From assembly GCF_003337435.1 (NCBI RefSeq), contig NZ_QPJS01000001.1:1047998-1111997 (forward strand): DNA of 64,000 bases, in the 5' to 3' direction. The notes below the pieces were generated by a model. That model was not told the DNA's origin and searched no databases. It saw only the letters and a list, made by a program, of their open reading frames with translations. This document shows, in pieces, positions 39,300 through 50,845 of this stretch. Every line of letters starts with the position of its first letter. Position 1 is the first letter of the stretch. Source of the DNA: Schleiferia thermophila (GTDB lineage: Bacteria > Bacteroidota > Bacteroidia > Flavobacteriales > Schleiferiaceae). A program made the position numbers and the translations under genes.

Positions 39300-39475
39300 G
39301 CGCCAGGGCGGAGGCGGATATGAGCCGCAGCGGGCGGGCTGTGTGGCTCACGGGCGAGGAGGCGGAGCGGAGCAAGCCACCGCAGCCCGATGTGCCACGC
39401 CCGAACCGCAAGGCGAATAGGAGCCGTAGACCGGCCCCCGGCCGCAATCATCGGACGGCCGGGGGAGGCGCCCCT
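39300..39475 (-). repeat. GC-rich structured repeat, copy A (downstream of pheT)
   Basis: The element is far richer in GC than its surroundings and matches 46843-47016 on the opposite strand, over about 175 bp with many substitutions and small indels. Read in the pheT direction it begins about 24 bp after the pheT stop. It has a perfect 10-bp stem (39435-39444 with 39456-39465) and a second stem (39343-39355 with 39385-39398, one mismatch and one bulge). Its placement after a stop codon suggests a 3'-end RNA structure or a mobile REP-like repeat. Confidence 0.75.
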
Positions 39476-39498
39476 CAAAAAAAATAAATACTTGCTTT

Positions 39499-41925
39499 TC
39501 AACGGAGTCTAGCTCCACACTGGCTGGACAGAGTTTCGAAAATGCGCTGCATAATGTGGTCGATTTCGTGTTCTTGAAGAGTGTGGCTGTCGCTGCGCAG
39601 GATGAAACGCAGGGCATAGGATTTGGTGCCGGCGGGAAGGTTTTTGCCCTGATAAACGTCGAAGAGCCTGATATCGCGCAATTGGCTGATGCGTAAGGAG
39701 GCTATGGCATCGGTCAGGGCTTTAAAAGTGACGGAGGTATCGACCAGCAAAGCAAGGTCGCGGACTACTTCAGGATAGGGGTGTATGGGCTTGTAGGTGG
39801 TCTTCTGCCGAAGCGAAAGGTGGAAGAGGTTTTCCCAGTGAAGGTGGGCATAGTAAACAGGTTGGTCGATTTCAAAGTTGACCAACAGAGTGGGCGCTAC
39901 CGCCCGAAGGCTGGCAATCGGCTGTCCATGGGCAGATATATCGATGCCTTCGCCAAGGTCATCGGAGGTGTAGGATTTGGTGATGTCGTGAATTTTGAAT
40001 TGATGGAGGACAGCTTCGACAGTGTCTACCAGATGATAGAAGGTGATGGGCGTGGAGGGCTGCATCCAGGTATCTTCAGGCCAATGTCCGGTGAGGACGA
40101 TGGCCAGCTGGTCGGTCTCCGAAAAGGAATCTGGCGTGGTTCGATGGTAGATTTTCCCGAATTCGAAGAGCATCAGGCTGTGCTGCTGGCGGTTTAAGTT
40201 GTAGCGTATGGTATGAAGGAGGGGTGGGAGCATGGAGGTCCTCAGTACCGAAAGGTCGCGGCTCAGGGGATTGAGCAGGGCGATGGCTTTATCTTGTTGG
40301 CTGGCCGGTAGATGGTCGGGAGAGGTGAGTGAATTGTTGAGGCATTCGCTCAATCCCCTTGCCGAGAGCAGTCGTGCTACCTGGCTTTTCTGGAGTAGCT
40401 CCTGATGGTCGGTGACGGGGGTATGCCAGGCAAATTTTATTTTCCGTGGTGGGTCGATGGCATCGAGGCCGTAGATGCGTAGAATTTCTTCGGCGATGTC
40501 GGCTTCGCGCTGTACATCTACCCTGTAGGCGGGGACTTCGAGGCGCAGGGTGTCTTCGATTTCTGCGGCTATTTTGATTTCGAGCGATGCGAGTATGGAT
40601 TTTATTTCGGCGTTGGAGATGTCTTTTTTGCCGATGAACCGGCGAATCCGGTCGAGATTGGCATCTACAGGATGTGGAGCTATGGGGGTAGGGTATTCGT
40701 CGTGGATGTTCATGGAAATTTCGCCACCGGCCAGTTCTTTGATGAGAATGGCAGCACGCTTGAGTGCGTAAAGGGTCATATCCGGATCCACTCCTCTTTC
40801 GTAGCGGTAAGAGGCATCGGTCTGTAATCCATGACGCCGTGCTGACCGCCTAATGTGAACCGAATCGAAAACAGCCGATTCCAGGAATACATTGACGGTG
40901 TGCCCGGTCACTCCTGAATAGAGGCCTCCGTAAATACCTGCCAGAACTAGGGGCTTATCGGCATCGCATATCATGAGGTCGTCGGCTGAGAGTGTGCGTT
41001 CAATACCGTCGAGAGTGATGAACTTTTCTCCTTCGGTGGCTTTTCGTATTTTGATTTTGCGGCCTGTTATTTTGTCGGCATCAAAGGCATGCAAGGGATG
41101 TCCACATTCGTGCAGGACAAAGTTGGTAATGTCGACGATATTGTTGATGGGAGTAAGCCCTACTGCTTTAAGCCGTTGCTGTAGCCATTGCGGAGAGGGA
41201 CCTACTTTAACGCCTGACACAGTGACGCCTGCATAGCGGTAACAGGCTTTTAGGTCATCGATTTCAATGTCGACGGTCAATTGTTGGTTGCTGACCTTAA
41301 AGCTTGCCACTGAAGGCAGGTTGATTTCGGTTTTTTTCTTCTTGTGAGTGAGGTAGGCGTAGAGGTCGCGTGCGACGCCATAGTGGCTCATGGCATCAGC
41401 CCGGTTGGGGGTCAGTCCGATTTCGAGGATGTAATCCACATCGGTTGCGATGCATCCTGCCAGCGGGAGGCCTACCTGTGTATCGTCTGGTAACACCATG
41501 ATGCCATTGTGGTCGTGGCTGAGGCCGAGCTCATCTTCTGCACAAATCATCCCCTCGCTAACTGCTCCTCTGATTTTGCTTTTTTTAATGTGGATTTCTT
41601 CTCCGGAAAAGGTCTTAAGCCTCGCACCGACCTGAGCAACAGGCACTTTTTGTCCTGCGGCAACATTGGGAGCCCCGCATACGATCTGCAGCAGTAGTCC
41701 GTTGCCCACATCTACCTGACAAAGTGTAAGCTTATCTGCGTTTGGATGCTTTTCGGCACTGACTATGTAGCCTACAACGACTTTTGGATCGATTTCAGGT
41801 CCCCCGCCCAAGCGTTCGATTGCTTCACATTCCAGTCCTATTTGTGTCAGAATTTCACCAACTTCATTTACATTTAGATTCTTTAAATCAATGTATTCTT
41901 TCAGCCAGTTATATGATATTTTCAT
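39499..41925 (-). CDS. pheT: Phenylalanine-tRNA ligase beta subunit
   Basis: The 808-residue protein has the tRNA-binding domain (KVVVGYIVSAEKHPNADKLTLCQVD), B3/B4 with LTPNRADAMSHYGVARDL, the B5 region (SRRHGLQTDASYRYERGVDP), the catalytic-like core (LNPLSRDLSVLRTSMLPPLL) and a C-terminal anticodon-binding FDX-ACB domain (HPYPEVVRDLALLVD). With PheS it charges tRNA-Phe. pheS is not adjacent, as in many Bacteroidota. Its promoter box lies at 41950-41957. Confidence 0.96.
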   Translation of the reverse strand: MKISYNWLKEYIDLKNLNVNEVGEILTQIGLECEAIERLGGGPEIDPKVVVGYIVSAEKHPNADKLTLCQVDVGNGLLLQIVCGAPNVAAGQKVPVAQVGARLKTFSGEEIHIKKSKIRGAVSEGMICAEDELGLSHDHNGIMVLPDDTQVGLPLAGCIATDVDYILEIGLTPNRADAMSHYGVARDLYAYLTHKKKKTEINLPSVASFKVSNQQLTVDIEIDDLKACYRYAGVTVSGVKVGPSPQWLQQRLKAVGLTPINNIVDITNFVLHECGHPLHAFDADKITGRKIKIRKATEGEKFITLDGIERTLSADDLMICDADKPLVLAGIYGGLYSGVTGHTVNVFLESAVFDSVHIRRSARRHGLQTDASYRYERGVDPDMTLYALKRAAILIKELAGGEISMNIHDEYPTPIAPHPVDANLDRIRRFIGKKDISNAEIKSILASLEIKIAAEIEDTLRLEVPAYRVDVQREADIAEEILRIYGLDAIDPPRKIKFAWHTPVTDHQELLQKSQVARLLSARGLSECLNNSLTSPDHLPASQQDKAIALLNPLSRDLSVLRTSMLPPLLHTIRYNLNRQQHSLMLFEFGKIYHRTTPDSFSETDQLAIVLTGHWPEDTWMQPSTPITFYHLVDTVEAVLHQFKIHDITKSYTSDDLGEGIDISAHGQPIASLRAVAPTLLVNFEIDQPVYYAHLHWENLFHLSLRQKTTYKPIHPYPEVVRDLALLVDTSVTFKALTDAIASLRISQLRDIRLFDVYQGKNLPAGTKSYALRFILRSDSHTLQEHEIDHIMQRIFETLSSQCGARLR

Positions 41926-41949
41926 TTAAGAAAACTTAAGATCAAGCAG

Positions 41950-41978
41950 CAAAAATACAGGGGGGACGAACAAACAAA
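41950..41978 (-). promoter_or_regulatory. Candidate pheT promoter
   Basis: On the minus strand TATTTTTG (complement of 41950-41957) matches the -7 TAnnTTTG box, and TTTG (complement of 41975-41978) lies 17 bp upstream as the -33 element. It is 24 bp before the pheT start. This is the best-spaced pair in the window. Confidence 0.5.
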
Positions 41979-42188
41979 GGGTTGCCTCCACAATTGCGAC
42001 CGGCTTATTAGAAATTTTTTTGGATATGGTATTCAAAGGCTTTTGAACAAAGATGCTGATAAAAATATTTTGATTATAGAGGATTGGCCGATGGATTTTT
42101 AAAATTCAGGCACAACAGCCGGTAAACAACAGTGCCCATACTTTAGAAGATAGGCTTAGGTGGCACGTGTAATTTGGTGTAAAGTTTG

Positions 42189-42196
42189 TAGGTTTG
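42189..42196 (+). promoter_or_regulatory. Candidate -7 box of the def operon promoter
   Basis: TAGGTTTG matches TAnnTTTG, 18 bp before the ATG at 42215. It would drive the chain of overlapping genes from def onwards. Confidence 0.4.
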
Positions 42197-42214
42197 CGCG
42201 CTTTCTAAGTGATA

Positions 42215-42796
42215 ATGACAACTACCATCTTGCCAATAGTAGCTTATGGAGATCCGGTGCTCAAGCGCCGGAGTGTGCCAGTTGGCCCGGACTACAAAGA
42301 CCTCGATACGCTAATCGCCAATATGTGGGAAACTATGTATCAGGCCAACGGTGTAGGATTGGCAGCCCCACAAATCGGGCTCAACATCAGGCTTTTTCTG
42401 GTGGACGCAACTCCATTTGCCGAAGATTCCGATTTTCGGAATGAAGAGGGCATTTCGACCTTTAAAAAAGTATTTATCAACGCTGAAATCGAAGAGGAAT
42501 TTGGCGAAAAGTGGATGTTCAACGAGGGATGTCTGTCCATCCCTGAAGTGCGGGAGGATGTGCTCCGCCATGAAAGCATCACCATCCGCTACCTGGATGA
42601 ACATTTTCGCGAACACCGCGAGACATTCAATGGCATCAGAGCCCGAATCATCCAACACGAATACGACCACATCGAAGGCATCTTGTTTACCGACCGGCTC
42701 TCCCCGCTGAAAAAACGTCTGATCAAGGGAAAACTCGACAACATCCTGAAAGGAAAAGTTCAGTGCAATTACAAAATCCGTTTTTACAACCGATGA
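42215..42796 (+). CDS. def: Peptide deformylase
   Basis: The ATG at 42215 is preferred to the GTG at 42209. The 193-residue enzyme has the three family motifs: GVGLAAPQIG (about 46-55), EGCLSIP with metal Cys106, and QHEYDHIEG with His148, Glu149 and His152. It removes the formyl group from nascent proteins. Its stop overlaps the start of the next lipoprotein gene (ATGA), so it heads a tight chain. Confidence 0.95.
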   Translation: MTTTILPIVAYGDPVLKRRSVPVGPDYKDLDTLIANMWETMYQANGVGLAAPQIGLNIRLFLVDATPFAEDSDFRNEEGISTFKKVFINAEIEEEFGEKWMFNEGCLSIPEVREDVLRHESITIRYLDEHFREHRETFNGIRARIIQHEYDHIEGILFTDRLSPLKKRLIKGKLDNILKGKVQCNYKIRFYNR

Positions 42797-43380
42797 AAAA
42801 ATTGTATCGCGCTGCGTTGTTTCTGCTTCTGGCTGTTCACTGGCAATGCGGTGGCAGAAGCCCACAGGAGGGCGATACAGGCCTGGAGCTTTCGGACCTG
42901 TTGGAAGATATACGACAGACCGAAAACCAATTGCTGGCCACAATGCCCAATGCGGATACGGCCTTAGCTGCCAGACTAATTGAAAAAATCAGCCTGTACA
43001 CCGAAGCTCTGCCGTACGACACACTTTCGGCTCAATTGATGATCAAAGCGGCCAACCTGTTTCTGCTCTTTCCCGATATGGAAGTGAATGCACTCAGACA
43101 GCTGCAGCTGGTATACACCAGGTTTGCAGGGCAGAATCATGCAGCACAGGCATTGTTTCTCTCCGGCATGATTTACGATAACAACCTGCGTCAGCCACAG
43201 CAGGCCATTAAAATGTGGGAACAATTGATAGAACAGTATCCGGGACATCCTTTGGCCGCACAAGCAGCTACCCTGTTAAAAATCACGGACGAGGACCCCT
43301 CCAACGATATTGAACTGATTGAAAAATGGCTCAACGACCCAAAAAACAAAACCAATCAAATACAAGTGCAAACAGAGTGA
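42793..43380 (+). CDS. Lipoprotein with TPR-like helical repeats
   Basis: The ATG at 42793 gives a signal peptide with candidate lipidated Cys19 (LLAVHWQCGG, an atypical lipobox). The 195-residue product is helical, with a TPR-like segment (QAIKMWEQLIEQYPGHPLAAQAATLL) near the C-terminus, like tetratricopeptide scaffold lipoproteins. It overlaps def by 4 bp and lies 4 bp before the DUF5606 gene. Its role is unknown; position suggests co-expression with growth genes. Confidence 0.7.
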   Translation: MKKLYRAALFLLLAVHWQCGGRSPQEGDTGLELSDLLEDIRQTENQLLATMPNADTALAARLIEKISLYTEALPYDTLSAQLMIKAANLFLLFPDMEVNALRQLQLVYTRFAGQNHAAQALFLSGMIYDNNLRQPQQAIKMWEQLIEQYPGHPLAAQAATLLKITDEDPSNDIELIEKWLNDPKNKTNQIQVQTE

Positions 43381-43384
43381 ACCT

Positions 43385-43849
43385 ATGGATTTGAAGAAAA
43401 TCATCGCCATCACCGGAAAGCCCGGTCTTTACAAACTGATTGCTACCACCCGAACAGGCATCCTGGTCGAAAGCCTGGCCGATGGCAAAAAAATGCCTGT
43501 CAGTGCCAACCAGAACGCTTCCAGCCTGAACGACATTTCAATGTTTACCTACAGCGACGACAAACCTCTTCGCGAAATCCTGGCCATGATGTATAAGCAT
43601 TACCAGGGAAAACAAGCCCCCTCTCACAAAGAATACGAAGCAACACTCAGGGCAGAACTCGAACACTTCTTTCCCGAATACGACCGCGAAAGAGTCTACT
43701 TCAGCGACATCAAAAAGCTCTTCCAATGGTACAACATCTTACTGGAAAAAGGACTGGTCGATGAACATCCAGAGCCTGCAACAGCTCAGCAGGAAAGTGC
43801 CCCCGACAAGCAACCGGAAGAAAACACCAATGCCGATACTCAAGCGTGA
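43385..43849 (+). CDS. DUF5606 family protein
   Basis: The start at ATG 43385 (MDLKKIIAITGKPGLYKLIA) matches the conserved N-terminus of DUF5606, a Bacteroidota-specific family of unknown function. Motifs include GILVESLADGKKMPVSANQN, DRERVYFSDIKKLFQWYNIL. The C-terminal 30 residues are Gln/Glu/Pro-rich and probably disordered. The stop overlaps the GTG start of mazG (GTGA). Family members usually sit beside mazG or def, as here, but their role is not known. Confidence 0.88.
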   Translation: MDLKKIIAITGKPGLYKLIATTRTGILVESLADGKKMPVSANQNASSLNDISMFTYSDDKPLREILAMMYKHYQGKQAPSHKEYEATLRAELEHFFPEYDRERVYFSDIKKLFQWYNILLEKGLVDEHPEPATAQQESAPDKQPEENTNADTQA

Positions 43850-44625
43850 ACTCCAGAGAAGATAAACTCAAAGCCTTCGACCGCCTGCTCACCATCATGG
43901 ACGAGCTGAGGGAACAATGCCCATGGGACCGCAAACAAACCATGGAAAGCCTCCGCCATCTCACCATAGAAGAGACCTACGAACTCGCAGACGCCATCCT
44001 GGAACACAATATGGATGACATCAAAAAGGAGATCGGCGATCTGATGCTTCACATGGTCTTCTACGCCCGGATTGCTTCCGAATCCGGGCATTTCGACATA
44101 GCCGATGTACTCAACACCATCTGCGACAAGCTCATAGCCCGACATCCTCACATCTATGGCGATGTTAAAGTCAGTGGCGAAGAAGAAGTAAAAGCCAATT
44201 GGGAAAAACTCAAACTCAAAGAAGGCAACCGCTCCGTACTCGAAGGTGTCCCCAAAAGCCTCCCCGCTATGGTGAAAGCCCAACGCATACAGGAAAAAGC
44301 ACGTGGAGCAGGCTTTGACTGGGATAATGCCGAGCAGGTCTGGACGAAAGTACAGGAGGAACTAGAAGAATTTCAATCCGAAGTCCACTCCGGCAATCAC
44401 GAAAAAATGGAAAACGAATTCGGTGACCTGCTGTTCAGCCTGATCAACTATGCCCGATTCCTCAACATAAACCCCGAAAACGCCCTCGAAAAGACCAACA
44501 AAAAATTTATTCACCGCTTCACCTACATGGAAAAGGCCGTTCAAGCTGCCGGCAATAACCTGCACAACCTCACCCTGGCCGAAATGGATAAGTACTGGGA
44601 CCAGGCAAAAAATACGGAACAATGA
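43846..44625 (+). CDS. mazG: Nucleoside triphosphate pyrophosphohydrolase
   Basis: The 259-residue protein starts at a GTG that overlaps the DUF5606 stop. It has two MazG domains: CPWDRKQTMESLRHLTIEETYELADAI with IGDLMLHMVFYARIA, and EELEEFQSE with FGDLLFSLINYARF, carrying the metal-binding Glu/Asp pattern. It hydrolyses NTPs to NMP and pyrophosphate, a clean-up role linked to stress. It overlaps the next gene by 4 bp. Confidence 0.94.
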   Translation: MNSREDKLKAFDRLLTIMDELREQCPWDRKQTMESLRHLTIEETYELADAILEHNMDDIKKEIGDLMLHMVFYARIASESGHFDIADVLNTICDKLIARHPHIYGDVKVSGEEEVKANWEKLKLKEGNRSVLEGVPKSLPAMVKAQRIQEKARGAGFDWDNAEQVWTKVQEELEEFQSEVHSGNHEKMENEFGDLLFSLINYARFLNINPENALEKTNKKFIHRFTYMEKAVQAAGNNLHNLTLAEMDKYWDQAKNTEQ

Positions 44626-45353
44626 AACACATAGCTCTCATCGCTATTGCACTCTTTAGCATTGAGCTGAGTCAGGCTCAGAAAGTAAAGAAAAATGCTG
44701 AGCTATATACCAAACCCGGTGTCCGTGTGCTCTTCATCATACCCGAAGGCACCGAAGTGTACACAGGCCCTATGACAGACAACTGGTATCCGGTCAGCAT
44801 CGAAGTCATGATTCGAAAGGCCGAAATGAGCGGCCACCGCATCGCTCAAGGAGCATCCGTATTCATCGGCGGAAAAGAAGTCGGCATCATGCCACAACAA
44901 TGGGATGTACCAGAAATAATTGAAGCAACCGGCCGCCACAAAGACAAGTACCGCGTCATCATTGAAGGCTATCTCTTCAAAACCAAAGTGGACGAAACCA
45001 CCAAACCCGAAACTGAAATCGAAAAAATCATCAACCGAAAAGGAAACATCCAAGCAGCCCTGACCGATTGGATTGCCGCATTCAAACCCGAAAAACACAT
45101 CCTTCCCCAAGGTACCGTATACATCGTCCGCGACCACAACCGCTCCCTCAAAGGCGACCGAATCCGTATGCTTCTCTTTCTGAAAGGCGACAATAAACTC
45201 ACCGCCGTAGTCACCGATAGCCATCCACTCACAGCCCGGTTCAGACACATACAATACGAAGAACCCTTCATATACCACTTCCCACTTGGAAAACCCAGTC
45301 CCAATGACTGGAAGGAAATCGAAGAGATTGTTCTCAAATTCACTCCCCTCTGA
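44622..45353 (+). CDS. Exported protein with SH3-like N-terminal region
   Basis: The 243-residue protein has a signal peptide (residues 1-19, ending LSQAQ) and KKNAELYTKPGVRVLFIIPEGTEVYTGPMTDNWYPV, like a bacterial SH3 motif of short beta strands. The rest is beta-rich without a motif I recognise. It overlaps mazG by 4 bp and precedes the methyltransferase gene by 11 bp. Function unknown; periplasmic or cell-surface location likely. Confidence 0.65.
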   Translation: MKHIALIAIALFSIELSQAQKVKKNAELYTKPGVRVLFIIPEGTEVYTGPMTDNWYPVSIEVMIRKAEMSGHRIAQGASVFIGGKEVGIMPQQWDVPEIIEATGRHKDKYRVIIEGYLFKTKVDETTKPETEIEKIINRKGNIQAALTDWIAAFKPEKHILPQGTVYIVRDHNRSLKGDRIRMLLFLKGDNKLTAVVTDSHPLTARFRHIQYEEPFIYHFPLGKPSPNDWKEIEEIVLKFTPL

Positions 45354-45364
45354 AAGGGCGCCAC

Positions 45365-46816
45365 ATGCCATACCAGCACCCGATGACCAAAAAATTCAAA
45401 AAAGGCGACCTGATCCCGCATCTTGAAGTGTCAGCTGCCGGAGCCCAGGGCAAAGCCATAGCCCGCACCTCTCAAGGCCAGGTGGTTTTCATTCCATACG
45501 CAGTACCAGGAGATATCATAGACGCAGAAGTCGTGCAATCCAAAAAAAACTACCTCGAAGCCCGCATCGTCCACCTTCATACCCCCTCACCACACCGTAC
45601 TTCCCCCCCTTGCACTCATTTCGGCCTATGCGGAGGCTGCAAATGGCAGCATATGCACTACCAGGCCCAATTACAATGGAAACAGCAGGAAGTCACCAAC
45701 AACCTCCTCCACCTCGGCAAACTCTCACTCCCGGAACCCGACCCCATACTCGCATCCAGCAGCACATTCGGCTATCGAAACAAAGTCGAATATTCCTTCA
45801 GCTCCATGCGATGGCTCACCGAACAGCAAATCACCGAAGGCCGGTCGCTCGACCGCCGGGCGCTTGGCTTCCACATACCCGGCCGATGGGACAGAGTACT
45901 ACATATTGAACACTGCCACCTGCACGACTCCTTCACCAACCAAATCCGCAATTACCTGTTTCACTACGCCATCGATCACCACCTAAGCTTCTGGCATCCC
46001 AAAGAACAAACAGGCCTGCTGCGCACCCTTACCCTCCGCTACACCACCACCGGCCAATACATGGTCATCCTGCAATTTGGTCACAACGATACATCCGCCA
46101 TACATCGACTCCTTGACAGCCTGCTGCAGACCTTTCCTCAGCTCACTACCCTACTCTACGCCATCAATACCAAAGGCAACGATGCCCTCTACGACCTCGA
46201 CCTGGTCTGTTATCACGGTCCCGGATACATCGAAGAACAAATGCCAGCCTACAACGCCCGGCATCAGCCCCTCATTTTTCGCATCAGCCCAAAGAGTTTT
46301 TACCAGACCAACTCCCACCAGGCCACACAGCTATATCGTAGGGCCCTCGACTATCTTCGACCCACAGGCACCGAGCTCGTCTACGACCTCTACACCGGCA
46401 CCGGTACCATCGCCCTCTACATGGCTCGGTATGTGCGCAAAGTCATAGGCGTAGAACTCGTACCCGATGCCATAGCCGACGCACACACCAATGCCCTTCT
46501 CAATCAAATCACCAATACCACCTTTATTGCCGGCGACATAAAACAAACTTTCACACCTGTATTTATTGCCACCCATGGCAATCCCGACGCCATAATAGTC
46601 GACCCTCCCCGCGATGGCATGCACCCCGATGTAGTCAATACTCTATTGCGCCTGGCCCCGCCCGCAATCGTTTACATCAGTTGCAACAGCGCCACCCAGG
46701 CCCGCGACCTGGCCATGCTCAGCAGCCGATACAGCATCATACGCTACGGAGCAGTCGATATGTTTCCACACACACATCATGTAGAGAGCGTAGCCCTCTT
46801 GCACAGACAAGACTAA
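45365..46816 (+). CDS. rlmD: 23S rRNA (uracil-C5)-methyltransferase, RlmD/RumA family
   Basis: The ATG at 45365 is used; the ATG at 45383 (MTKKFKKGDLI) is also possible. The protein has an N-terminal TRAM domain, the iron-sulphur cluster cysteines in CTHFGLCGGCKWQHM plus a later Cys (HCHLHDS), an AdoMet site YDLYTGTGTIALYMA, DPPRDGMHPDVV and the catalytic Cys in YISCNSATQARDL. It methylates C5 of a uridine in 23S rRNA; RlmD is the likely type, but the exact base cannot be told. It is the last gene of the def chain. Confidence 0.92.
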   Translation: MPYQHPMTKKFKKGDLIPHLEVSAAGAQGKAIARTSQGQVVFIPYAVPGDIIDAEVVQSKKNYLEARIVHLHTPSPHRTSPPCTHFGLCGGCKWQHMHYQAQLQWKQQEVTNNLLHLGKLSLPEPDPILASSSTFGYRNKVEYSFSSMRWLTEQQITEGRSLDRRALGFHIPGRWDRVLHIEHCHLHDSFTNQIRNYLFHYAIDHHLSFWHPKEQTGLLRTLTLRYTTTGQYMVILQFGHNDTSAIHRLLDSLLQTFPQLTTLLYAINTKGNDALYDLDLVCYHGPGYIEEQMPAYNARHQPLIFRISPKSFYQTNSHQATQLYRRALDYLRPTGTELVYDLYTGTGTIALYMARYVRKVIGVELVPDAIADAHTNALLNQITNTTFIAGDIKQTFTPVFIATHGNPDAIIVDPPRDGMHPDVVNTLLRLAPPAIVYISCNSATQARDLAMLSSRYSIIRYGAVDMFPHTHHVESVALLHRQD

Positions 46817-46842
46817 TTCCACATGAATAATATTTGTAGTTT

Positions 46843-47016
46843 GGGCGCCTCCCCCGGCCTCCTTGAGGGGAGACCGGGGGCCGGTCTACGGCTACTATTC
46901 CCTTTGCGGATCGGGCGTGGTCCATAGGGCTGCGGTGGCTTGCTTCCGCTCCGCCTCCTCACCCTTGGACCACACTGCCCGCCCGCTACAGCTCATATCC
47001 GCCTCCGCCCTGGCGC
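46843..47016 (+). repeat. GC-rich structured repeat, copy B (downstream of the rlmD-type gene)
   Basis: Matches copy A at 39300-39475 on the opposite strand, so each copy has the same orientation relative to the gene before it. It begins 26 bp after the stop codon. Stems: 46851-46857 with 46874-46880, and 46917-46924 with 46966-46973, the latter extended by 46912-46917 with 46980-46985. Against copy A one pair in the second stem changes from T-A to C-G, keeping the pairing. Confidence 0.75.
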
Positions 47017-48385: not shown

Positions 48386-50845
48386 TTACTTTTTTTTCTT
48401 CTTGCCTACATTCACATCTTCACCCTCCTCTTCATCTGTGTAGCCATAGCCATATCCATAGCCATAGCCATATCCATAGCCGTACCCATAGCCATAGCCA
48501 TAGCCGTAGCCATAGCCACCTTTTTTTGCATTAAAATCGTTGACACATATGCCAAGGTTTTTAAAAATACCCGATTGATATTTCTCATTTATGGACCTGA
48601 GAACCTCCTTTGGAGAAAAACCAGCCCGAATCACATAAATCATCAAATCCGATAACCTTGCTATTTCAATCGAATCAGAAACTAAAAGCACCGGAACTGT
48701 ATCGATGATGATGTATTCATATTGTTGCTTCAGCTGGTTGATCAACACCTCAAATTCATGCCTGATGATAAGTTCGGAGGGATTAGGAGGTATGGGTCCA
48801 CCTGAAATGACATCCAGATTTTCATATACCGTGTGTTGAATAATTTCATCTGCCGAATCCTGTCCAGACAAATACGTACTAAGACCTTTTTCGTTCAAAA
48901 GGTCAAAGTCCTTGAAGATTTTCGGCTTTCTGAGGTCTGCACCAATCAATATTGTTTTCTTACCAGCCATGGCAAGAACACTACCCAAATTTATACTTAC
49001 AAACGTTTTGCCTTCACCGGGGATACTCGAAGTTACAGCGATCACTTTAAGCACTCCGTTATTGGTGGATTTAAAAAATTCCAGATTGGCCCTAATGCCC
49101 CGGAAATTTTCAGCTATGATGGATTTTGGATAGTCTAAAACTACCAAATTAGAATCTCTTTTGCTGTGCCCAACAATCCCTACAATAGGAACCGATGTTC
49201 CCTTTTCAATCTCCGCAATGGAGTACACCTTGTTGTTAAAATACACGACAGTTAATACAAATCCAACCGGAATAATAAAACCCAACATCAGTCCCACAGC
49301 GTAGGTCAAACCGGGTTTGGGACTTATTGGAATATTATCCACCAAAGCTCTTTCCACGATGCGTACATCTGTCTGTGTACTTGCAGCACTAATACCTACT
49401 TCTGCTCTCTTCTGCATCAGATAGGTAAAGAGTGTTTGGTTGAGTTCAAATTTTCTCTTTATTCTCAACAGGTCCTGTTCCGACTTAGGCACTTTACTGA
49501 GCTGTTGCTCCAGTTGTTGCATCTTCCTCTTCAGAGTGTTTTGTTCCATCTGGAGTACATTTCTCAGTCCTGAAATATTGTCCCTGATATTTTGTTGAAT
49601 CTGGGCAATTTGAAGAGTGAGCTCTTTAATGACCGGGTTATCAGCCGTCAGACTTCCATACCGCGCTCTTTGACTAATGAGATCGTTGAGTTTAGTAACC
49701 AGGTTGATGATCACCGGGTCGCTAATTCCACTTACGGTGGGCTGCACCAGTTCTGATTTAAGATCTCTTTGATTGAGTTGATTTTCCAGATATTTGATGT
49801 ACTCGAGCTTTAACTGATTTTGAGAGGATTCACGATCGATCTCGGTAAGTCTAGAAAGCAGTTCACCAGCCTCTGACTGTATATCAATGACCAGATTGGA
49901 CGATCTGTAAGTCTGCAAAATGTTTTCAGCCACTATCAAGCTGTCTTCTATTCCCTTAAGTTGCTCATTGATAAAATCCAGAGTAGCCCTACTGGCAGAC
50001 TTCTTAAGTTCCAGTCCGAATTCGATGTAGGACTGAACAAACGCATTGAGGTAATCCCTGATTTTTTCTGTAGAAGAACCTGTTAATTCAATGTTAATAC
50101 CTGATGAGCTCTTGGCTGCAGGTTCTATTTTAACCTGCTGAGCATACGCATTGGCCAAGCCTTTTCGGTTTTGAAATTTAAAAGTGAAATTGGCTTTCTC
50201 CGTTAATTTTTTTAAAGGTATCAGCCGAAATTTATAACATTCACTCTCTATCCATTCATTAAACGATACAATTTGTTCTAATTCTTTTATGGAGGAACAG
50301 CTCAGCGCGGAATCAGACTCGTACAGATAACTTGCTGCAGACTTTGCATCCCGAATGCGAATTCTGAATTCATTCTGTGACAGGATGGTCACTTCATACT
50401 CACCCAGCCACTGAGGATGCGCCGGATCGTATTCTATCTCAAAAGGCTTCTCTGTTCCATACAGTTCGACATTGCGGACTCTTCCTTCTCCTATTAGACT
50501 CACTTCAAAAGGCACCTTTTTTAACACTCGTTCTGCCAGATTCACACTTTTCAATATCAGCACCTCGTTTTCAAATTTCAGCCGAGGATTGTAATACCCC
50601 ATGGACAGCAACAACATGTCCATGGCCGGGGCAGATTTTTCGCCATCGGCCAATAAAATAATGGTCTTCCCTTTGTAAGTAGGAACACTGTATCGTATGT
50701 AGAGCCATGCTCCGATAAGTCCTATTAAAACTCCGGCAATCACCAATTTCCAATACTCTAAAATTCTGTACAAGAAATTTCGGATATCCAAAGACTCCTC
50801 TTCCGATCTGTTGTACATAGAATTACTATCTCTTTGCAACTGCAT
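48386..50845 (-). CDS. Polysaccharide co-polymerase/bacterial tyrosine kinase (Wzc-like)
   Basis: The 819-residue protein has an N-terminal Wzz domain with membrane segments near 35-55 and 525-545, a long coiled-coil periplasmic part, and a C-terminal BY-kinase. The kinase has Walker A in AVTSSIPGEGKTFVSINLG, a Walker A'-like ILIGADLRKPK with Gly in place of the first Asp, and Walker B YIIIDTVPVLLVSD. The C-terminus is a perfect (Gly-Tyr)13 run (residues 777-802), then an acidic stretch and a Lys run. The tyrosine cluster is the usual autophosphorylation site and is here unusually regular. It controls polysaccharide length and export with the Wza-like protein encoded just upstream (9 bp). Confidence 0.94.
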   Translation of the reverse strand: MQLQRDSNSMYNRSEEESLDIRNFLYRILEYWKLVIAGVLIGLIGAWLYIRYSVPTYKGKTIILLADGEKSAPAMDMLLLSMGYYNPRLKFENEVLILKSVNLAERVLKKVPFEVSLIGEGRVRNVELYGTEKPFEIEYDPAHPQWLGEYEVTILSQNEFRIRIRDAKSAASYLYESDSALSCSSIKELEQIVSFNEWIESECYKFRLIPLKKLTEKANFTFKFQNRKGLANAYAQQVKIEPAAKSSSGINIELTGSSTEKIRDYLNAFVQSYIEFGLELKKSASRATLDFINEQLKGIEDSLIVAENILQTYRSSNLVIDIQSEAGELLSRLTEIDRESSQNQLKLEYIKYLENQLNQRDLKSELVQPTVSGISDPVIINLVTKLNDLISQRARYGSLTADNPVIKELTLQIAQIQQNIRDNISGLRNVLQMEQNTLKRKMQQLEQQLSKVPKSEQDLLRIKRKFELNQTLFTYLMQKRAEVGISAASTQTDVRIVERALVDNIPISPKPGLTYAVGLMLGFIIPVGFVLTVVYFNNKVYSIAEIEKGTSVPIVGIVGHSKRDSNLVVLDYPKSIIAENFRGIRANLEFFKSTNNGVLKVIAVTSSIPGEGKTFVSINLGSVLAMAGKKTILIGADLRKPKIFKDFDLLNEKGLSTYLSGQDSADEIIQHTVYENLDVISGGPIPPNPSELIIRHEFEVLINQLKQQYEYIIIDTVPVLLVSDSIEIARLSDLMIYVIRAGFSPKEVLRSINEKYQSGIFKNLGICVNDFNAKKGGYGYGYGYGYGYGYGYGYGYGYGYGYTDEEEGEDVNVGKKKKK

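Follow-up and report, generated by a model that had tools for sequence, protein, structure and literature searches.

Which kind of element is the GC-rich, folded sequence that stands twice in the analysed window (the whole 64,000-nt stretch of Schleiferia thermophila DNA), each time shortly after a stop codon? A first-pass annotation had described the two copies and proposed a 3'-end RNA, an attenuator-like terminator or a REP-like mobile element. Our analysis bears out the description. The two copies of 174 nt are 87% identical and inverted to each other, and they start in gene sense 25 nt past the stop codon of pheT (copy A) and 26 nt past that of rlmD (copy B), both host genes matching their protein families above the cut-offs (Table 1). 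The annotated end of copy A, 39475, lay 2 nt too far. With GC contents of 0.747 (copy A) and 0.701 (copy B), the copies are far above their 95-100 nt flanks (0.42-0.43) and the window mean (0.40), and in a scan with a 10-nt step the only 174-nt stretches of the window with a GC content above 0.65 were those over the two copies. As annotated, the first stem is kept between them while its loop differs. For the second, long stem one compensated pair had been reported; the compensation holds, but two pairs differ on both sides, pair 81/130 (A1 numbering; C-G in copy A, T-A in copy B) and pair 86/126 (C-G in copy A, A-T in copy B).

Table 1. Features of the two element copies and their host genes (window positions).
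Feature	Position	Strand	Remarks
Element copy A	39300..39473	-	174 nt; read in pheT direction; model R1 157.2 bits (copy within the model's training set)
Element copy B	46843..47016	+	174 nt; read in rlmD direction; model R1 157.9 bits (copy within the model's training set)
T-rich tract abutting copy A, before the element	39474..39490	-	
T-rich tract abutting copy B, before the element	46829..46842	+	
Hairpin I, copy A	39436..39464	-	A1 columns 10-39
Hairpin I, copy B	46852..46879	+	A1 columns 10-39
Central long arm, copy A	39330..39409	-	A1 columns 66-148
Central long arm, copy B	46906..46986	+	A1 columns 66-148
End-joining helix, 3' half, copy A	39300..39304	-	pairs with 39467-39471; A2 helix 1
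End-joining helix, 3' half, copy B	47012..47016	+	pairs with 46845-46849
pheT, host gene of copy A	39499..41925	-	TIGR00472, 424.7 bits (cut-off 402.65)
rlmD, host gene of copy B	45365..46816	+	TIGR00479, 315.2 bits (cut-off 183.55)

The element is not limited to these two copies. The S. thermophila genome harbors 25 full copies of 172-176 nt and one interrupted by an N gap, dispersed across contigs C1-C6 without forming arrays. Among 24 of them the best pair is 95% identical and the median is 89%; outside an N-gap duplication at C1:140 kb there are no near-identical recent copies. With our model of the element (R1) we found 21 matches in Thermaurantimonas aggregans (99% complete) and four in a second Thermaurantimonas genome (70% complete). 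Judged by such sequence matches, the full-strength element is restricted to the S. thermophila genome and the genus Thermaurantimonas. The simple repeat had been expected to be common in Bacteroidota, but its exact pattern was present in one of 296 genomes. Phage and plasmid records gave no match at blastn sensitivity, viral contigs gave none to two exact patterns of the element, and its exact repeat words do not occur in the literature searched. In the accessible parts of publications on gene-downstream or REP-like repeats of Bacteroidetes and Flavobacterium, nothing was recognised as the element.

The position of the copies relative to genes is strict. Without L025 and L026, which contain N gaps, 24 S. 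thermophila copies were scored, and 21 of them start 9-65 nt past a stop codon on the same strand, in gene sense. The expected share within 70 nt of a same-strand stop is 0.136 for random intergenic positions, so the annotated preference is real and random placement can be dismissed; for T-rich intergenic positions the share is 0.165, and T-rich sequence alone is insufficient as the cause. The host genes are mutually unrelated and, where nameable, mostly housekeeping genes. On the far side of the element a gene was called for 22 of 24 copies, convergent at 13 and codirectional at a distance of at least 73 nt at nine. Genes were called with home-made codon or hexamer scores. True exceptions to the placement at gene ends are L010 and L023; at L010 a 90-aa frame was taken as the upstream gene, but approximately 70 nt from the element a 303-aa frame begins on the opposite strand. 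Copy L016, scored as a miss, lies behind a tRNA-Gln gene with a terminator.

In T. aggregans 16 of 17 pattern loci were bounded (L078 was not), and the 509-base stretch of L075 lacks a called gene, leaving 15 scored copies. Thirteen of these follow a gene on the same strand, ten of them within 70 nt. The misses are L083 and L087, and L083, placed on the opposite strand in this scoring, is preceded at a distance of 53 nt by a same-strand frame of 339 aa in the host-gene comparison described below. Elsewhere the upstream gene is on the same strand at 13/20 (genome G038), 4/8 (G041), 6/7 (G048), 2/5 (G053) and 7/13 (G181) loci.

Directly before the element the DNA is rich in T. The T fraction in the 10 nt preceding the 24 S. 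thermophila copies is 0.65, compared to 0.21 at positions -50 to -21, and the last 10 nt are the T-richer part at all 24 of these copies and at 16/16 copies in T. aggregans. T is also raised on this side in G041, where the opposite flank is likewise rich in T (0.43), in G048 and in G053, little raised in G181 (0.42 vs 0.34) and not raised in G038 (0.40 vs 0.38). A strong terminator, defined as a stem with a dG of -8.0 or below followed by a T tract, stands directly before the element at 6/7 copies in G048, 4/8 in G041, 5/16 in T. aggregans, 2/20 in G038 and 2/24 in S. thermophila. At the laxer threshold of -4, terminator-like stems were present in a fraction of 0.05-0.31 of shuffled controls and at 0/13 copies in G181 and 0/5 in G053. 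Since the T tract precedes rather than follows the element, and a terminator-like stem with a T tract is absent from the 120 nt after it at all 24 S. thermophila copies, the data do not support the idea that the element itself is an intrinsic, attenuator-like terminator.

The element is a short non-coding repeat. In its folded single strand a helix joins the two ends, one hairpin stands close to the 5' end, and the middle forms a long arm. In the cross-genus alignment, changes on both sides affect 23 of 41 pairs, among them pairs of the end-joining helix (GCGCC/GGCGC in S. thermophila, GCGTG/CACGC in Thermaurantimonas) and all 13 pairs of the main helix of the central arm. Two-sided changes were counted in 116 cells versus 36.4 in shuffles, while further pair types were not in excess (36 vs 36.0). 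This covariation confirms the earlier proposal of selection on structure.

A folded sequence in such a position could act in the mRNA, and the main rival to a mobile repeat is a structural RNA of the 3'-UTR. According to this explanation, which we consider possible but doubtful, the mRNA would extend past the T tract and include the element, the fold would block 3' exonucleases or end transcription, and copies spread by some event would be kept for their function. The strict sense placement at unit ends, with convergent or codirectional genes beyond, fits well, as does the lack of any other terminator after the element, although in S. thermophila a strong terminator is in any case present at just 12 of 78 gene ends of the ordinary kind. 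When L025, gapped columns and the hypervariable hairpin I loop are left aside, stem columns carry more copy-specific changes (31 in 95) than unpaired columns do (14 in 69). Of these stem changes, 17 still give Watson-Crick pairs, an observation that would likewise suit a role at the present site and that counts against a mobile repeat. However, variants common to at least two copies show the opposite trend, with 24 in 69 unpaired and 19 in 95 paired columns. Wobble pairs, counted to distinguish RNA from DNA as the working strand, point both ways: across genera GU exceeds AC (47 vs 18 cells, counted from the alignment table), but 33 of the 47 GU cells are in three columns, and within S. thermophila GU is not favoured (7 vs 11 AC of 1174 cells). 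The mixed orientation of related elements in other genomes and the change of host genes between genera also speak against the 3'-UTR explanation.

This change of host genes became apparent when T. aggregans and S. thermophila were compared using longest frames rather than curated genes as proteins: one of 15 compared host genes was common to both, and pheT and rlmD of T. aggregans are without the element. Because host genes mostly differ between genera, we favor insertion and turnover of sites. At one Flavobacterium gene pair, an element of the superfamily described below was present at four of 29 bounded species loci, and at 11 the aligned gene ends were just 20-81 nt apart, as read by eye in species too diverged for exact empty-site junctions.

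Based on the 25 full, sharp-ended copies, their placement, the T-rich flank, the covariation, the site turnover and the superfamily link, the element is best explained as a mobile, non-autonomous repeat that inserts just behind T-rich tracts where genes end, an explanation in which we place about as much trust as doubt. The copies would have spread by inserting 3' of T-rich tracts, chiefly those found at intrinsic terminators and gene ends, and as a candidate step an enzyme supplied in trans may recognise the fold. The lack of near-identical recent copies in S. thermophila and the weaker orientation in G038, G041, G048, G053 and G181 count against a mobile repeat. So do the absent or slight T enrichment in G038 and G181, the T-rich opposite flank in G041, the frequency of terminator-like stems in the shuffled controls, and the fact that T-rich sequence does not suffice for the strict placement in S. 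thermophila. No clear target-site duplication of the kind left by classical DNA transposons and MITEs was detected: end matches of at least 4 nt occurred at 3/24 copies in S. thermophila (mismatched flanks 6%; longest match 4 nt), 0/16 in T. aggregans (2%) and 2/13 in G181 (15%).

Our search for a mobilising protein yielded none for the element. It is improbable that the copies are repeats of the REP/BIME type moved by a Y1 (RAYT, IS200/IS605-like) transposase. They are multi-copy, intergenic and folded, with a one-sided T-rich flank and no clear target-site duplication, and one protein of the S. thermophila genome matches the Y1 family PF01797; but its gene (C1:430618) and the closest copy on the list (C1:451967) are more than 20 kb apart, and neither T. 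aggregans nor the second, 70% complete Thermaurantimonas genome has a PF01797 match. Since T. aggregans nevertheless carries its 21 element matches, a Y1 transposase seems not to be needed. Of the three options in the first-pass annotation, the data speak most for a REP-like mobile element, with the Y1 enzyme apparently dispensable.

The annotation knew no named family for the element, and direct searches agree. A scan of the window at Rfam gathering scores revealed no family at the element, nor did Rfam models at E values up to 10 match it at eight loci of S. thermophila and the two Thermaurantimonas genomes; Flavo-1 (RF01705), searched in these three genomes at E up to 1 with stricter filters, was also without a match, and the element scores below the 42 bits at which Rfam assigns membership in Flavo-1. 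A link to this family nevertheless exists through intermediates. Model R1 detects weaker copies in other Flavobacteriales, and at 12 of 15 such order-level loci Flavo-1 matches at the same place (E up to 1), ten with E below 0.001 and eight above the 42-bit gathering score; the two weakest matches have E values of 0.12 and 0.25, and three loci are without one. In G181, R1 matched 13/13 loci with E values of 1e-4 to 0.09 in 75 kb, and the Flavo-1 model matched 6/6 tested loci with 28.1-36.6 bits, while R1 matched 0/12 Flavo-1 loci of G038, G041 and G048. The coincidence at 12 of 15 loci argues for a divergent, enlarged relative, and on these model matches we assign the element to a remote, GC-rich branch of a Flavo-1 superfamily. 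Both have the same order of conserved blocks around the central arm and are multi-copy in Flavobacteriales. However, the element has 172-176 nt compared to 76 in the Flavo-1 model, its end-joining helix and hairpin I fall outside that model as aligned, it is GC-rich and nearly always behind stop codons, and the Rfam model corresponds to the strand opposite to the gene-sense strand used here.

Rfam lists Flavo-1 under the type Gene; sRNA, which implies that the copies would be genes of a trans-acting small RNA. The conserved fold and the conserved stretches are compatible with this, but the presence of 25 diverged copies, linked in position to the ends of genes, makes it very improbable. Moreover, in the accessible part of an RNA-seq study of F. 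psychrophilum, Flavo-1 matches show no preference for the sense or the antisense strand, and many of them lie outside transcribed regions (PMC9723704). Flavo-1 is among the most abundant small-RNA families in a table that gives no function (PMC9029176, as far as accessible), and the accessible text of the literature naming the family assigns it none. In the light of our data, Flavo-1 appears closer to an element that spreads among gene ends than to a small RNA. It is tempting to speculate, with more reserve, that Flavo-1 represents just the inner arm of a larger mobile element, which also has an end-joining helix and a second hairpin. This element would spread through Bacteroidota via T tracts at transcript ends and would have become almost obligate at gene ends in Schleiferiaceae, as a 3'-UTR device that spreads itself and is moved by an enzyme. 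Gene-end placement, the T-rich flank, the outer helix and hairpin and the site turnover turn the choice between a mobile repeat and a portable 3'-UTR into a testable question, and S. thermophila and T. aggregans, with more than 20 copies each, are good test cases.

Among known systems, integron attC sites follow the stop codon in a fixed orientation, as the element does, and have the same relation to the upstream gene. The copies can hardly be attC sites, since none of the 24 has attC-like pairs of inverse-core and core boxes at its ends on either strand, they are scattered over C1-C6 rather than arrayed, and the nameable hosts are mostly housekeeping genes. Group IIC introns insert just behind intrinsic terminators; the comparison concerns only the manner of working, and the element has just 175 nt. 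REP/BIME repeats are dispersed, intergenic and folded and often lie at gene ends, and in all these respects the element resembles them. It differs in the lack of a Y1 match in both copy-bearing Thermaurantimonas genomes and in being much longer than REPs, for which an excerpt of PMC3733652 gives 20-40 bp.

The element occurs twice in the window, and its two copies share 87% identity. When the window was scanned in 10-nt steps, 174-nt stretches with more than 65% GC were found only over these copies.

Copies of the element in the window and their distance from the preceding stop codon
Feature	Position	Strand	Length	Location
Element copy A	39300-39473	- (gene direction)	174 nt	25 nt past pheT stop
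Element copy B	46843-47016	+	174 nt	26 nt past rlmD stop

The search of the whole genome (2.6 Mb in 23 contigs) revealed 25 full copies and one interrupted by a run of N. The ends are sharp: all 25 full copies start with GGGCGC, end with GCGC and are 172-176 nt long. At C1:136.6-146.1 kb (L073:2622-12083), duplicated sequence flanks N gaps. There, the last ~50 residues of a 950-aa helicase-like frame are nearly the same as the C-terminal end of the adjacent pyruvate kinase, and almost identical element copies are located behind both. This duplication is perhaps a scaffolding artefact or a product of recombination at the gene end.

Among the 24 scorable copies (L025 and L026 were excluded for N gaps), 21 begin 9-65 nt (median 21) downstream of the stop codon of a same-strand gene. 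The same placement test is passed by 13.6% of the intergenic positions and 16.5% of the T-rich ones (464 kb, same genome), and the corresponding binomial probabilities of 21/24 are 9e-16 and 5e-14. At L016, a tRNA-Gln with a terminator precedes the element, while L010 and L023 are exceptions in which the start of an opposite-strand gene lies about 70 nt and 31 nt away, respectively. The host genes, as far as they can be named, are unrelated to one another: pheT, purD, a DASS symporter gene, folE, murA, pyk and rlmD were assigned above the model cut-off; by a best model below cut-off or over a partial gene, secA and genes for an exopolyphosphatase, an ABC-F protein, a gyrase/topoisomerase IV A protein, a LolC/E permease and others were assigned. 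In Thermaurantimonas aggregans strain LA, of the sister genus, a same-strand gene is upstream of 13 of the 15 scored copies at a distance of 18-129 nt (at most 70 nt in 10). That we are dealing with a portable 3'-UTR element is a possible, if somewhat doubtful, reading. An element in opposite orientation was also seen upstream of tmRNA in two genomes from different families, at ~66 and ~128 nt (L031:1005-1636 and L266:973-1640). Elsewhere in the window, a large protein gene at 48386-50845 has a (GY)n tail close to the C terminus; we take its product to be of the transport/tyrosine-kinase type.

In the own copies, T accounts for 65% of the 10 nt before the element versus 21% at -50 to -21, and in the T. 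aggregans copies for 81% versus 34%. The near T content exceeds the far one in 24/24 and 16/16 copies, respectively, and also in three other genomes (G041, 8/8; G048, 7/7; G053, 5/5); the rise is not clear in G038 (11/20) and G181 (7/13). This T tract belongs in part to strong intrinsic terminators, whose tail it forms. With a stem of -8.0 kcal/mol or below, such terminators precede the element in 6/7 copies of G048, 4/8 of G041, 5/16 of T. aggregans, 2/20 of G038 and 2/24 of the own genome, and in none of the 13 G181 or five G053 copies. At the laxer threshold of -4 the counts are 6/7 (shuffled rate 0.31), 4/8 (0.12), 9/16 (0.28), 6/20 (0.11) and 3/24 (0.07), again with none in G181 (0/13; 0.05) and G053 (0/5; 0.08). 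In the own genome, a terminator after the element was found in 0/24 copies, and strong terminators are present at 12/78 ordinary gene ends. Just 3' of the Thermaurantimonas copies (L074-L090) there is often a short palindrome of the GCGGCC..GGCCGC type, in some cases with T runs.

The occupied sites mostly differ between the two genera. Comparison of 15 host frames of T. aggregans with 21 of the own genome revealed only murA in common, and neither pheT nor rlmD of T. aggregans is followed by a copy; behind its pheT, where the contig ends after a further 166 nt, a terminator-like stem with a T run was found. It is about an even bet that the element is a mobile repeat targeting T tracts at gene ends; this and the portable 3'-UTR reading are compatible and can hold together. 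No Y1 (REP-type) transposase was found in the element-rich genome of T. aggregans, no clear target-site duplication at the element ends, and no match to the element in phage and plasmid sequences. Further, a convergent gene pair in Flavobacterium (L174-L202; matched in 57/61 genomes, 30 loci fetched, 29 bounded) seems to gather several different repeat types across species. By eye, Flavo-1-type sequence was recognised in G038, G442 and G405, and G273 has a GGGCGTG...CACGC form; in 11 other loci the aligned gene ends are 20-81 nt apart, and in the remaining 14 the stretch between them is longer. The Rfam model of Flavo-1 (RF01705) scored 79.7 bits in G442 and 72.1 bits in G405, G038 being the starting match. 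In G273, R1, our covariance model of the window element, matches the element weakly (17.6 bits), and a sub-cut-off Flavo-1 match (35.9 bits) lies at a different place of that locus.

In the cross-genus alignment of 26 sequences from three genomes, 41 pairs are supported, 23 of them with two-sided changes. Such changes occupy 116 cells versus 36.4 after shuffling and at most 16 with partners slid; further pair types show no excess (36 versus 36.0 shuffled). For example, the end-joining helix reads GCGCC/GGCGC in the own genome and GCGTG/CACGC in Thermaurantimonas. When the 24 own copies are compared without the loop of the 5'-side hairpin I, unpaired columns carry copy-specific changes at a lower rate (14 in 69) than stem columns (31 in 95), while variants common to several copies show the opposite trend (24 in 69 versus 19 in 95). 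The 31 stem singletons comprise 17 that are still Watson-Crick, one GU, six AC and seven other mismatches. Within the genome, 7 GU versus 11 AC pairs were counted among 1174 cells; across genera the numbers are 47 GU versus 18 AC, with 33 of these GU falling in three columns. On these counts, the strand under selection may be either RNA or single-stranded DNA.

R1 found matches in 9/88 genomes of the family Schleiferiaceae, in which NCBI taxonomy places T. aggregans and to which the genome of the window belongs by its kinship assignment: 26 in the genome of the window, 21 in T. aggregans, four in a second Thermaurantimonas genome (G019) and weak ones in six others. In the order sample, 20/196 genomes were matched (five from the own family, 14 from family f6 and one from f3). 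By eye, three genomes of one genus (L274, L275, L276) seemingly have a common element locus, and in two of them the sequences on either side (TTTTTTAGTG..CACTAAAAAA) look like inverted repeats that would place the element in a hairpin loop.

The first-pass annotation knew no named family for the element. A repeat pattern was found in one of 296 phylum-sample genomes, with 16 exact copies in G181 (reversed control, 0). R1 matches all 13 fetched G181 loci and none of 12 Flavo-1 loci from three other genomes; the Rfam model matches 6/6 tested G181 loci at 28.1-36.6 bits, under its gathering score of 42. Outside the family, Flavo-1 is co-located with the R1 match in 12 of 15 loci (one per genome; eight above 42 bits, 10 with E < 0.001, two weak) and absent from the remaining three, and in G010, of the own family, both models match one same element. 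Above cut-off, Flavo-1 occurs in 7/60 relatives; it is absent from the own genome, T. aggregans and G019. The window element is therefore outside Flavo-1 by Rfam's rule, yet this chain of tested steps identifies it as a homologue.

PMC9723704 describes Flavo-1 matches without strand preference, many of them outside transcribed regions. Flavo-1 is also an entry in a table of PMC2864571, and PMC9029176 places it among abundant sRNA families, there with no function given. Palindromic candidate RNAs of Bacteroidetes are named in PMC8040213. The window element groups with a known but unexplained family. The Rfam model of Flavo-1 covers the inner arm, on the strand opposite to our reading of the window element; new are the enlarged form with an outer helix and a hairpin, the strict placement at gene ends and the site turnover.
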